Source of the DNA: Picosynechococcus sp. PCC 7003
GTDB taxonomy: Bacteria > Cyanobacteriota > Cyanobacteriia > Cyanobacteriales > MRBY01
Assembly (NCBI RefSeq): GCF_001693255.1
Contig: NZ_CP016474.1
Span: 1,754,661 to 1,818,660, forward strand
Length of the DNA: 64,000 nt
Reading direction: 5' to 3'
Below the pieces are notes generated by a model. That model saw nothing but the letters and a program-made list of their open reading frames with translations, made no database searches and was not told the DNA's origin. Made by a program: the position numbers and the translations under genes. Positions 30,589-34,751 of this stretch are shown here, piece after piece; position 1 is the first letter of the stretch; each line of letters starts with the position of its first letter.

Positions 30589-31845
30589 TTAAACCATCTC
30601 TAAAGGGGGAATTTCCGAACGCTGCATGGTGGCCTCTAACTGCACTTCTGCCATATCCGCCTCTACTGCTGCCATCAGTTGCTCCCGGAGGTCGGGCATC
30701 ACAGCCAAGGCCCTGGTCCAATCGGGAATGCGGTACACAGCCGGCTCGTGCATATATTTATCAAAGGCCAAGGGAATGATTTGTTCAAAGCTTTCGACGG
30801 TCATTTCTTCCCGGTGGCGGTCATAGGGAATACCGTTACAGGTCGCATCAACAAAATATTGACGGATCATATCCTGGGCCACACGGCGGAACTTCACCTG
30901 GAGCGCGATTTGGTGCCCTTCAGAGAAAACAATCGACTCTGTTTCTGTCAGGGTGCGCAGGATCGAAGACAAAATTTCGGTGCACATTTTCTGTAATCCT
31001 TCTTGGGGATTGTTGCCTACCGCTTTGTGTTTGTGGTCAAAGAAGCCCAGATCTACCTGGGCCACCCGTTTCGGCGCTACATTGCGATAAACTTCTGCCA
31101 ATAACCCCACCTCAATGCCCCAGTCACAGGGAACGCGCAGATTTAAAGCCAGATCTGCGGTCATGGCAAATTCACCGGCGAGGGGATAGCGATAGGATTT
31201 GAGGTAGTGGAGATAGGCATTGCGTCCCAGGACATCTTCGAGGGTTGCCAACAGAGGCGCAACAAAGAGGCGCACAACCCGGCCATTCATCGCTCGGTTT
31301 TCGAGACCGAGACGGGTGTAATAGGCTTTGTTATAGGCAATGCCAAATTCTGGCTCCACGATGGGATAAAACAGCTTGGCCACCAGGGAACGGTCAAAGG
31401 TGACAATGTCGGCGTCATGGAGGGCGATCGCCCGGGCATCTAGGGACGCCAGGCCAAGGCCCAGCCATACTGCCCAACCCTTGCCCATGTAATCAAGGAG
31501 ATTGAGATTTTGGTGGGCCAGCTTTTCTAAAATGCCGCGAATCCGGGCCCCATTCGTCCAAATGACGTTGACTTTTTGGGGCAATTCGCTAAAAAACATC
31601 ACGGCATGGTGATATTGTTCGACGGTTTCGGCGTGGAGACAAACATTGACCGTTTGGATGTAGGCACAGCCTTTTAAATGTTCTTTGATCCGGGTGAGGG
31701 CAGGCCGTTGTAGCTCTTCGTAAAGGGAAGGAATGAGTAACGCCATGGGGCAAATTTCACGAAGATTCATCAGGCGTTTTTCGAGGTAATCCAGATCGGC
31801 ATCAAGATCATGGATGGTGGTGATGAATTCTTGGCAAAAGTCCAT
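30589..31845 (-). CDS. gpgS: Glucosyl-3-phosphoglycerate synthase
   Basis: GT81-family retaining glycosyltransferase making glucosyl-3-phosphoglycerate from an NDP-glucose and 3-phosphoglycerate, the first step to the compatible solute glucosylglycerate. 418 residues. The acceptor/donor region is VNVIWTNGARIRGILEKL. The metal-binding acidic motif is in ALHDADIVTFDR, and GLENRAMNGRVVRLFVAPLL and DWGIEVGLLAEVYRN are typical of GpgS. It diverges from the phosphorylase and gpgP genes across a 316-base control region. A mannosyl analogue is unlikely given the GT81 pattern. Confidence 0.9.
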   Translation of the reverse strand: MDFCQEFITTIHDLDADLDYLEKRLMNLREICPMALLIPSLYEELQRPALTRIKEHLKGCAYIQTVNVCLHAETVEQYHHAVMFFSELPQKVNVIWTNGARIRGILEKLAHQNLNLLDYMGKGWAVWLGLGLASLDARAIALHDADIVTFDRSLVAKLFYPIVEPEFGIAYNKAYYTRLGLENRAMNGRVVRLFVAPLLATLEDVLGRNAYLHYLKSYRYPLAGEFAMTADLALNLRVPCDWGIEVGLLAEVYRNVAPKRVAQVDLGFFDHKHKAVGNNPQEGLQKMCTEILSSILRTLTETESIVFSEGHQIALQVKFRRVAQDMIRQYFVDATCNGIPYDRHREEMTVESFEQIIPLAFDKYMHEPAVYRIPDWTRALAVMPDLREQLMAAVEADMAEVQLEATMQRSEIPPLEMV

Positions 31846-32161
31846 TGCTAGTCACCTAAATAAAAAGAAAATCTTAAAATTCGCCTTTAAATTAACCCAA
31901 TTTTGCGGGGTTGGCCGTATCTAAAGCGACGTAAAAATTACTACAATGTCAGCTTCATTTGTTGATAGGCTGAGATTTAACTTGAGTAAAGGGTGAGTCA
32001 GTCGTTTTTTTGTCCCCAAGAAAATACTGAAAAAGCAGATCAAACTGATTTCTAAAATGATGTCTTTTGATGCTGTAGTGATAAGGCCCTGGGGCTTTAA
32101 AAAAAGCGAAGTCGGCAGATCCTTCGATGAGTGAAATTAGCGTGTTTGTCCTGTTACTCCT
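31846..32161. promoter_or_regulatory. Divergent control region between gpgS and the phosphorylase gene
   Basis: 316 non-coding bases, AT-rich. It contains the NtcA-type site listed separately at 31931. The plus-strand leader from the predicted start near 31978 to the ATG at 32162 would be about 185 bases long. No riboswitch motif or terminator was recognised in it. On the minus strand no TAN3T box lies 20-24 bases from the NtcA motif, so gpgS probably uses another promoter. Confidence 0.6.
31931..31971 (+). promoter_or_regulatory. Predicted NtcA-activated promoter
   Basis: GTA-aaaattac-TAC at 31931-31944 is an exact match to the NtcA consensus GTA-N8-TAC. After 21 bases comes TAGGCT (31966-31971), fitting the TAN3T -10 box within the 20-24 base spacing of class II NtcA promoters. 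It points towards the phosphorylase-gpgP genes. It suggests induction under nitrogen limitation. Confidence 0.65.
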
Positions 32162-33919
32162 ATGACCATTCCCCAGATTGCAGGTCTTGGCGATCGCCTT
32201 GATGAATTTTTTGCGACCCTGTATCCCAACCATCCGCCTACAGAGTTAGTTGCGCGCTTGGAGCGGGTGCTTGCGCCCCATTTAATGGCGACGGCGGGAA
32301 GCGAAGATTTATGGGATCAGAGTACAGCCCTGATGATTACCTACGGGGATAGCCTATACCAACCCAGTGCGGATAATGGCCCCAATCCTCTCCAGGTACT
32401 TTTGATTTTTCTGCGGGAGCGGCTCCAGGGGGTGATTAGCGGTGTGCATATTTTGCCGTTTTTCCCCTACAGTTCCGATGATGGCTTTGCGGTGATCGAT
32501 TACCGCCAGGTCAATCCACAGTTGGGCAGTTGGCAAGACATTGAGGCGATCGCCGCCGAATTTGAAATGATGGCCGATCTTGTGATCAACCACGTCTCCA
32601 GTGAATCAGACTGGTTTCAGCAGTTCCTCGCCCAGGAAAAACCCGGCTGTGACTATTTCATTGAGGTGCCCCCAGATACCGATACCCAGTTAGTGGTGCG
32701 GCCCCGCAGTAGCCCTCTCTTAAGTAAATTTGCCACGACAAAAGGCGATCGCCACGTCTGGACAACCTTTAGCCGCGACCAAGTAGATGTCAATTTTGCC
32801 AATCCGGACGTTCTGTTTGAGTTTATCGATATCCTCTTGGGCTACTGCCAACATGGAATCCGCTTTATTCGTCTCGATGCGGTGGGCTTTCTCTGGAAAA
32901 AATTACAAACTGCCTGCATTCACCTGCGGGAAACCCATCTGGTAATCCAATTGATCCGGGAGATCCTCGCCATCACCTATCCGCGCACCGTTTTGATCAC
33001 CGAAACCAACGTCCCCAACCGGGAAAATCTCAGTTATTTTGGCAAGGGCAACGAAGCCCACATGATCTACAATTTCAGCCTGCCGCCTCTCCTCCTCAAT
33101 GCATTGATTCGCGGCGAAGCCCGGCACCTCAAAACCTGGATGAAAAGTATGCCCCCGGCCCAGGATGGTTGCGCCTATTTTAATTTCACCGCCTCCCACG
33201 ATGGCATTGGCCTCCGTCCCGCCGAAGGTCTTCTAGAAGGCCAAGAATTCGAGCAATTGATCAAAACCATGGCCGATTTTGGGGCCAGGATCAGCTACCG
33301 TAGTCTGCCCAACGGCACCGAAAAACCCTATGAATTAAATATTTCTTTGTTCGATGCCCTCAAAGGCACCATCACAGGCCCCGACCCTTGGCAACGGCAA
33401 CGGTTCCTCTGTTCCCAGGCGATCATGATGTCCTTAGAGGGAGTGCCGGCGTTTTATATCCATAGTTTTTTGGCGACCCCTAATGATGATGCCAAGGTAG
33501 CCGCGACGAACCATAACCGCAGCATTAACCGCCACCAATGGGATTATGATCTGCTCCAGAAAAAGCTCACTGATCCTGACTCTGACCAGGCTTGGGTCTT
33601 GCGAGAACTCATAAAACTCATCGCGATCCGTCGCCAGCAGCCTGCTTTCCATCCCAACGCGACCCAATATACCCTTGATTTCCAGAGTCCGGCAGTCTTT
33701 GGTTTTTGGCGTCAGAGCCGCGATCGCCGCCAGAGTATTTTCTGTTTGTTTAACCTGGGCGATCGCCCCACAACCATCCCAGTGGCAAGCTTAAACCTCA
33801 TTTGCACCGACGACTGGCAGGATCTGTTGGGTCAAGTTGTGTTAGAAGAAGGCACAACGGACATTTCCCTAGCCCCCTATCAAACTGCGTGGATTACCAA
33901 TGTTCCTCTGCTTCACTGA
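32162..33919 (+). CDS. GH13 subfamily 18 glycoside phosphorylase, probably glucosylglycerate phosphorylase
   Basis: 585-residue sucrose-phosphorylase-like enzyme. The (beta/alpha)8 motifs are HILPFFPYSSDDGFAVIDY, DLVINHVSSESDWF, the nucleophile Asp in GIRFIRLDAVGFLW (about residue 239), the acid/base Glu in VLITETNVPN (about 281) and FTASHDGIGLRPAEG. The family includes sucrose, glucosylglycerol and glucosylglycerate phosphorylases. Its position between gpgS and gpgP favours glucosylglycerate, cleaved to glucose 1-phosphate and glycerate; that is inference from context. Its stop lies inside the gpgP start region, a 20-base overlap, so the two are translationally coupled. Confidence 0.85.
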   Translation: MTIPQIAGLGDRLDEFFATLYPNHPPTELVARLERVLAPHLMATAGSEDLWDQSTALMITYGDSLYQPSADNGPNPLQVLLIFLRERLQGVISGVHILPFFPYSSDDGFAVIDYRQVNPQLGSWQDIEAIAAEFEMMADLVINHVSSESDWFQQFLAQEKPGCDYFIEVPPDTDTQLVVRPRSSPLLSKFATTKGDRHVWTTFSRDQVDVNFANPDVLFEFIDILLGYCQHGIRFIRLDAVGFLWKKLQTACIHLRETHLVIQLIREILAITYPRTVLITETNVPNRENLSYFGKGNEAHMIYNFSLPPLLLNALIRGEARHLKTWMKSMPPAQDGCAYFNFTASHDGIGLRPAEGLLEGQEFEQLIKTMADFGARISYRSLPNGTEKPYELNISLFDALKGTITGPDPWQRQRFLCSQAIMMSLEGVPAFYIHSFLATPNDDAKVAATNHNRSINRHQWDYDLLQKKLTDPDSDQAWVLRELIKLIAIRRQQPAFHPNATQYTLDFQSPAVFGFWRQSRDRRQSIFCLFNLGDRPTTIPVASLNLICTDDWQDLLGQVVLEEGTTDISLAPYQTAWITNVPLLH

Positions 33920-34751
33920 TCTCGACGGCACCCTCCTCAACCACGATGACTATCGCTACGATGCGGCGATACCAACAATCCAGACCTTGAAACAAGCGGG
34001 AATTCCGATCATTCCCACCACCAGCAAAACGAAGGCAGAGGTGCTTGACCTGCGCGAGTCCCTTGGGTTAAAGGATCCATTTATTGTGGAAAATGGTAGC
34101 GGCATTTTCCTGGAACCGGGCGATCCACGGTTTGATTTTTCAGAATTGGATGTGGCGATGACGACCGAGGCCACCCTCACCACCATTACCCTCGGCATTT
34201 CCTACGCCCAAGCGCGACAATCCCTCCAGAATTTGGCCCAACAGATTGGGGAACCCTTGACGGGGTTTGGGGATTTAAGTCTGGAGGCATTACAGGATCT
34301 CACGCAGTTGCCCTTAGAAGCGTTAAAACAGGCGGGCGATCGCCAATTTAGTGAACCTTTTTTGCGGCCCCAAACGGATTTAGCACAGTTAGAATCTTTA
34401 GCGAAAAAAGCTGGTCTGCAAATCCTGGTGGGGAATCGCTTCTGTCATCTTTTGGGGGCGGGAGCCGGAAAAGGGCGCGCCGTGCAACTCCTCCAGCAGG
34501 CATGGCAAAAAGCCCATCCGGATCAACCGCCCATCAAAACCCTCGGCCTGGGGGATAGCCCCAATGATTTGTCTTTACTAGAAGCCGTCGATGTGGTGAT
34601 CGCCGTACCGGGGCCAGAAGGAGTGAACCCGAAGCTAGCTTCCCATATTCAAGAGCAAGGCTGGTTAGTCGCCCCCTATCCCGGTGCTAAGGGCTGGGCC
34701 GCCGCAGTAGAAAAACAATTGAATGAGTTAGATCATCCCTTGGCGCGGTAA
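33900..34751 (+). CDS. gpgP: Glucosyl-3-phosphoglycerate phosphatase (MPGP-type HAD)
   Basis: 283-residue HAD-IIB phosphatase that removes phosphate from glucosyl-3-phosphoglycerate, giving glucosylglycerate. Motif I is MFLCFTDLDGTLLN with D7 and D9. IPIIPTTSKTKAEV holds motif II, and VENGSGIFL is characteristic of mannosyl-/glucosyl-3-phosphoglycerate phosphatases. Motif IV is in TLGLGDSPNDLSLLEAVD. Together with gpgS it completes the two-step pathway. Whether it also accepts the mannosyl substrate cannot be told. Confidence 0.88.
   Translation: MFLCFTDLDGTLLNHDDYRYDAAIPTIQTLKQAGIPIIPTTSKTKAEVLDLRESLGLKDPFIVENGSGIFLEPGDPRFDFSELDVAMTTEATLTTITLGISYAQARQSLQNLAQQIGEPLTGFGDLSLEALQDLTQLPLEALKQAGDRQFSEPFLRPQTDLAQLESLAKKAGLQILVGNRFCHLLGAGAGKGRAVQLLQQAWQKAHPDQPPIKTLGLGDSPNDLSLLEAVDVVIAVPGPEGVNPKLASHIQEQGWLVAPYPGAKGWAAAVEKQLNELDHPLAR

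Follow-up and report, generated by a model that had tools for sequence, protein, structure and literature searches.

A predicted NtcA-type promoter facing the glucosylglycerate phosphorylase operon in Picosynechococcus

We consider it likely that positions 31931-31971 of the 64,000-nucleotide stretch analysed here (the window) form a class II promoter through which NtcA activates the ggaP-gpgP operon, a prediction made from the layout of the site and above all from its conservation in relatives. The site sits in a 316-base gap between the gpgS start (31845, minus strand) and the phosphorylase start (32162, plus strand). The genes and promoter parts are as follows.

30589..31845, minus strand: gpgS, putative glucosyl-3-phosphoglycerate synthase, divergent (best profile score below the model cut-off; PCC 7002 naming)
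31931..31944, plus strand: NtcA-type box GTA-N8-TAC, GTAAAAATTACTAC (from the sequence; half-sites kept in 5/6 genus genomes)
31966..31971, plus strand: -10 element TAGGCT, of the form TAN3T (TA and T invariant, at the same spacing, in 6/6 genus genomes)
31979, plus strand: predicted transcription start, an A lying 41.5 bases downstream of the centre of the box (by the canonical NtcA layout in PMC3898017)
31979..32161, plus strand: predicted 183-base leader (from the sequence)
32162..33919, plus strand: ggaP, putative glucosylglycerate phosphorylase of GH13_18 (TETN motif, loop A Glu)
33900..34751, plus strand: gpgP, putative glucosyl-3-phosphoglycerate phosphatase (subfamily profile match and PCC 7002 naming)

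The site and the genes it would serve

The half-sites of the box are palindromic, and 21 bases separate the box from TAGGCT. A sequence-only reading had proposed an exact GTA-N8-TAC with TAGGCT 21 bases downstream, in a class II layout on the plus strand only. The coordinates bear out the geometry, and the strand claim is also right, since the minus strand has no TAN3T at a distance of 21-23 bases past the box. In the 31800-32200 region there was no Rfam match, no sigma-70-type promoter match and no terminator match, and the same sigma-70-type scan recognised no promoter for gpgS.

According to PMC3898017, the canonical class II NtcA box is centred about 41.5 bases before the start and is combined with a TAN3T -10 element, and a ChIP study with 508 putative NtcA sites showed GTN10AC as their strongly conserved core. 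The window's site resembles the canonical promoters described there (nirA, glnA, urtA) in its GTA-N8-TAC box, its TAN3T -10 element, the distance between them (about 22 bases in those promoters) and the lack of a recognisable -35 element. It differs from them in its spacing of 21, in its predicted 183-base leader and in its target: the canonical promoters serve nitrogen uptake and assimilation, whereas this one faces an osmolyte operon that encodes a phosphorylase and a phosphatase.

The product of 32162-33919 is a putative glucosylglycerate phosphorylase (GGaP), as it carries both published marks of this enzyme, the TETN motif and the loop A Glu (PMC7178133). TETN (residues 280-283) and E391 within YE(L/I/V)N, taken as the loop A Glu from its sequence context, are invariant in all 12 aligned proteins. 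Like the described GH13_18 enzyme (EC 2.4.1.352, PMC7178133), the window's protein has TETN and the loop A Glu, here with gpgS and gpgP as neighbours. For the gpgS product, the best model was the NCBIfam equivalog GpgS_Meth, which aligned along almost its whole length and scored 506 bits, below the model cut-off of 700, and the gpgP product scored 256 bits against TIGR01486 (cut-off 165), making it a member of the mannosyl-3-phosphoglycerate phosphatase subfamily. The gpgP gene overlaps the 3′ end of ggaP by 20 bases. The enzyme naming is not new, since A2021, A2022 and A2023 of PCC 7002 have already been named GPGS, GGAP and GPGP (PMC10873239). At the time of PMC7178133, experiments had yet to confirm what GGaP does in vivo.

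In the mechanism that we propose, nitrogen shortage would raise 2-oxoglutarate and bring an NtcA dimer onto the box at 31931-31944, where it would help RNA polymerase to use the poor -10 element TAGGCT. Transcription would then run from about 31979 across the leader and through both overlapping genes, ggaP and gpgP. The GpgP enzyme would complete glucosylglycerate synthesis, and GGaP would interconvert glucosylglycerate plus phosphate and glucose-1-phosphate plus glycerate; from cell phosphate, breakdown would be the expected direction of the phosphorylase, although it may work towards synthesis instead. Since NtcA would drive GGaP and GpgP jointly, faster glucosylglycerate cycling is predicted under nitrogen stress, with a greater capacity to turn over this nitrogen-free anion. 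We infer NtcA binding, the start site, co-transcription, induction and net flux at ggaP-gpgP. The view of the sequence-only reading that nitrogen controls turnover as well as synthesis is kept here as a suggestion, because gpgP is itself a synthesis enzyme and gpgS is without the class II layout in the genus.

Glucosylglycerate can substitute for glutamate as a counter-ion under nitrogen limitation, and it turns over in PCC 7002; PMC11009771 cites both points. The literature searched included no recognisable report of NtcA control of gpgS, ggaP or gpgP, and we claim no priority. Nor did it yield nitrogen data on A2021-A2023 of PCC 7002, the genes named in PMC10873239. With a conserved putative nitrogen promoter on ggaP in a genus that includes a genetically tractable model strain, the phosphorylase as a nitrogen-stress enzyme becomes a testable question.

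Conservation in the genus and genome-wide controls

The site is convincing because of its conservation in relatives and not because of the single sequence. GTA-N8-TAC occurs five times in the window against 4.12 expected, which is no enrichment, and a genome-wide count of the class II layout with a spacing of 20-23 gave 33, compared with 96 for a reversed-pattern control; in the other five genus genomes the reversed control is likewise commoner than the layout. Motif frequency was therefore rejected as evidence for the site. In one of these genomes (G004), a 43-base string with GTACTTATTTTTAC is identical at six listed places (for example, C1:507632-507674) and resembles a mobile element; its copies inflate the motif counts there. 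When the gap was shuffled with its dinucleotides preserved, GTA-N8-TAC-N21..23-TAN3T pointing towards the phosphorylase arose in 0.18% of 5000 shuffles, and the layout towards ggaP arose in 0.08-0.38% over the individual genus gaps (5000 shuffles each).

The genus set comprised six Picosynechococcus/Limnothrix genomes, including that of the window (G000), and all six carry the divergent gpgS and ggaP-gpgP cluster. GTA-N8-TAC-N21-TAN3T is found at the same place in five of them, and in the sixth (G001) the box reads GTA-N8-GAC, again followed by N21 and TAGGCT, a tolerable variant since GTN10AC is the conserved NtcA core. In the alignment of the six genomes, eight of the nine motif-defining columns are invariant, compared with 34 of the 316 gap columns overall (hypergeometric p 7e-8, uncorrected for phylogeny), and all eight columns of the N8 spacer vary. 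With the nine-column shape slid along the gap, 31931 scored 8 and 31932, overlapping it in the same block, scored 7; elsewhere the score was at most 5. The earlier assignment of a class II NtcA site facing the phosphorylase and gpgP is thus supported by relatives, with five exact matches and the sixth one base off. NtcA itself (TIGR03697) is above the model cut-off in all six genomes.

The 33 sites of G000 were also compared with the 53 sites of G004, a distant member of the genus in which 49 loci cover the sites, using the translated similarity of their surroundings. Five of the G000 sites have a counterpart in G004 that is oriented alike towards the matching gene:

response regulator: recurring site, protein 81% identical
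NblB-like HEAT-repeat gene: recurring site, 50% identical; 60 bits against the NblB model, whose cut-off of 300 it does not reach
ferredoxin-nitrite reductase nirA: recurring site, 81% identical, above the model cut-off
DUF1830 gene: recurring site, 68% identical
ggaP: recurring site, 70% identical

Among these, nirA at least is a nitrogen gene, and the NblB-like gene is probably another; nirA is listed among the canonical NtcA promoters (PMC3898017). The pairs L041/L277 (same region as L040), L042/L265, L042/L269, L047/L243, L048/L268 and L055/L251 were left out of the five, either because the site faced the shared gene differently, because the region was already counted or because the similarity was weak (25-33% identity). 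Ahead of the NblB-like gene (L040/L041, G000:C1:1662354-1662422), a single palindromic GTA-N8-TAC has TAN3T on both sides, at 22 and 21 bases, and its gene-facing layout recurs in G004 (L277). The DUF1830 gene, with the class II layout both in G000 (L053, C1:2650903-2650945) and in G004 (L258), is a candidate member of the nitrogen regulon.

The layout is an incomplete guide to the NtcA regulon, since several nitrogen-related controls (ntcA, the glnA gene of G001 and the ammonium transporters) are without it in full. Comparable, less perfect sites precede glnA in G000 (GTG-N8-TAC-N22-TAGGAT) and G002 (GTG-N8-TAC-N22-TAN3T); no such site was found at glnA of G001, and the G003 scan fell inside a split match. 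Upstream of ntcA, none was found in five of the six genus genomes, and G004 has only a distant match (-791) without TAN3T. In all six genomes, one ammonium transporter family match per genome has GTA-N8-TAC 559-577 bases upstream without a downstream TAN3T, and the eight other transporter copies scanned have no GTA-N8-TAC.

With these results in hand, we regard it as very unlikely that the box and the -10 element are a chance match without function. Such layouts are indeed fewer across the genome than matches to the reversed control, but this one stays at the same place across the genus while its spacer is scrambled, and shuffling recreates it only at the low frequencies given above. It is also unlikely that the box is bound by a CRP-family regulator other than NtcA. 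GTA-N8-TAC is short, and each genus genome has 4-6 further family matches besides NtcA (4 in G000); however, the box fits the NtcA consensus and spacing (PMC3898017), and nirA and the NblB-like gene are among the genes at which the layout recurs in G004.

Predicted promoter direction in relatives outside the genus

A class-wide search for gpgS covered 388 genomes drawn from a larger group and gave 123 matches in 120 genomes. Three loci outside the genus (L138, L139 and L140, from families f43 and f48) have a gpgS that is 75-80% identical; among 6 and 42 genomes from the orders of G089 and G226, no further members of this gpgS clade were found (E 1e-170). In all three, gpgS and ggaP are divergent, and gpgP comes next in two of them, the contig of the third stopping within ggaP. 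Each has GTA-N8-TAC in the same gap, 61-67 bases from the gpgS start, and each box is followed, in the gpgS direction, by a TAN3T after 22-23 bases; this gpgS-facing layout appeared in 0.18-0.48% of the shuffles of these gaps. L139 has a second box closer to ggaP, and L140 has a box with one mismatch that faces ggaP at class II spacing; these extra boxes may allow control of both sides there.

The gpgS-facing TAN3T in all three close relatives is a new observation, and the direction of the promoter may have changed. Going by their position, we infer that the boxes of the genus and of these three loci are one ancestral site. We put forward, tentatively and as a reading that may well not hold, that this NtcA site kept its place as the promoter reversed, driving gpgS outside the genus and ggaP-gpgP in Picosynechococcus/Limnothrix. 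The gpgS tree places L138 as the sister of the genus and L139 with L140 as the sister of both (starred support), a topology under which a gpgS-facing promoter is the simpler ancestral state. The ggaP tree groups the three loci together (87/77, not starred), which leaves room for a change in either direction. If the reversal is true, nitrogen starvation would lead to synthesis in one lineage and to cycling in the other, or else GGaP would run towards synthesis and couple glucose-1-phosphate with glycerate in starved, glycogen-rich cells. Such a reversal would offer a simple case of a pathway rewired between synthesis and recycling at an NtcA site.

NtcA could also act on both sides of the gap within the genus, with the same dimer activating ggaP-gpgP in the class II manner and activating or repressing gpgS, as a shared switch of the pathway. 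We find this conceivable but somewhat doubtful. The short distance from the gpgS start to the box speaks for it (only 76-87 bases between them in the genus genomes), as do the gpgS-side elements of L138-L140 and, in G003, a -10-like TAATAC, not a TAN3T, that was read by eye on the gpgS side at 23 bases from the box. Against it, none of the six genus genomes has a gpgS-side TAN3T at a distance of 21-23 bases, even with one box mismatch allowed, and the scan described above recognised no gpgS promoter. An NtcA-activated promoter facing ggaP-gpgP is the reading that we favour for the window.

Occurrence of the layout among other glucosylglycerate loci

From the 123 gpgS matches, 30 loci and 17 of the 46 belonging to family f34 were examined, and the remaining 76 were left out (G064 being partly covered through L010). 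The f34 genomes are 1.6-2.9 Mb in size and are presumed to be marine picocyanobacteria. Their clusters are like the window's in the divergent order of gpgS and ggaP-gpgP, seen in 17 of 17 sampled loci, but they differ in their estimated gaps of 54-85 bases, in their proteins (34-47% identical) and in the class II layout, which lies between gpgS and ggaP in 0 of the 17. Three related f34 loci (L166, L167 and L173) carry a GTATTGG..AATAC palindrome, either inside the gap or where ggaP begins, without TAN3T at 21-23 bases.

Other arrangements of these genes were examined as well. Of 22 gpgS genes without an adjacent ggaP, 2 have GTA-N8-TAC in the 700 bases upstream (for L150, 392 bases only); of 34 ggaP loci without an adjacent divergent gpgS, 3 have it in the 600 bases upstream. 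The 34 come from 39 ggaP loci examined, with L058, L071 (the same stretch as L152), L079, L080 and L081 left out; they include L076 and L078, which repeat contigs of L017 and L019, L010, in which gpgS is downstream, and the distant paralogues L020 and L021. The divergent loci L152, L156 and L165 have no class II layout in either direction, and in L152 and L156 GTA-N8-TAC is present but far from gpgS.

The layout as a general feature of glucosylglycerate makers was thus rejected, being absent from all 17 sampled f34 loci and rare in the other gpgS and ggaP settings. Within this sample, ggaP-facing control appears to belong to one lineage and to be no rule for glucosylglycerate makers. Among the three ggaP loci with a box, only L082, from the cyanobacterial MAG T3Sed10_344R1, has class II spacing. 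No gpgS lies within 3 kb upstream of it; at its position 2729, GTAACCTGTCATAC is followed by TAN3T after 21 bases, which may be chance.
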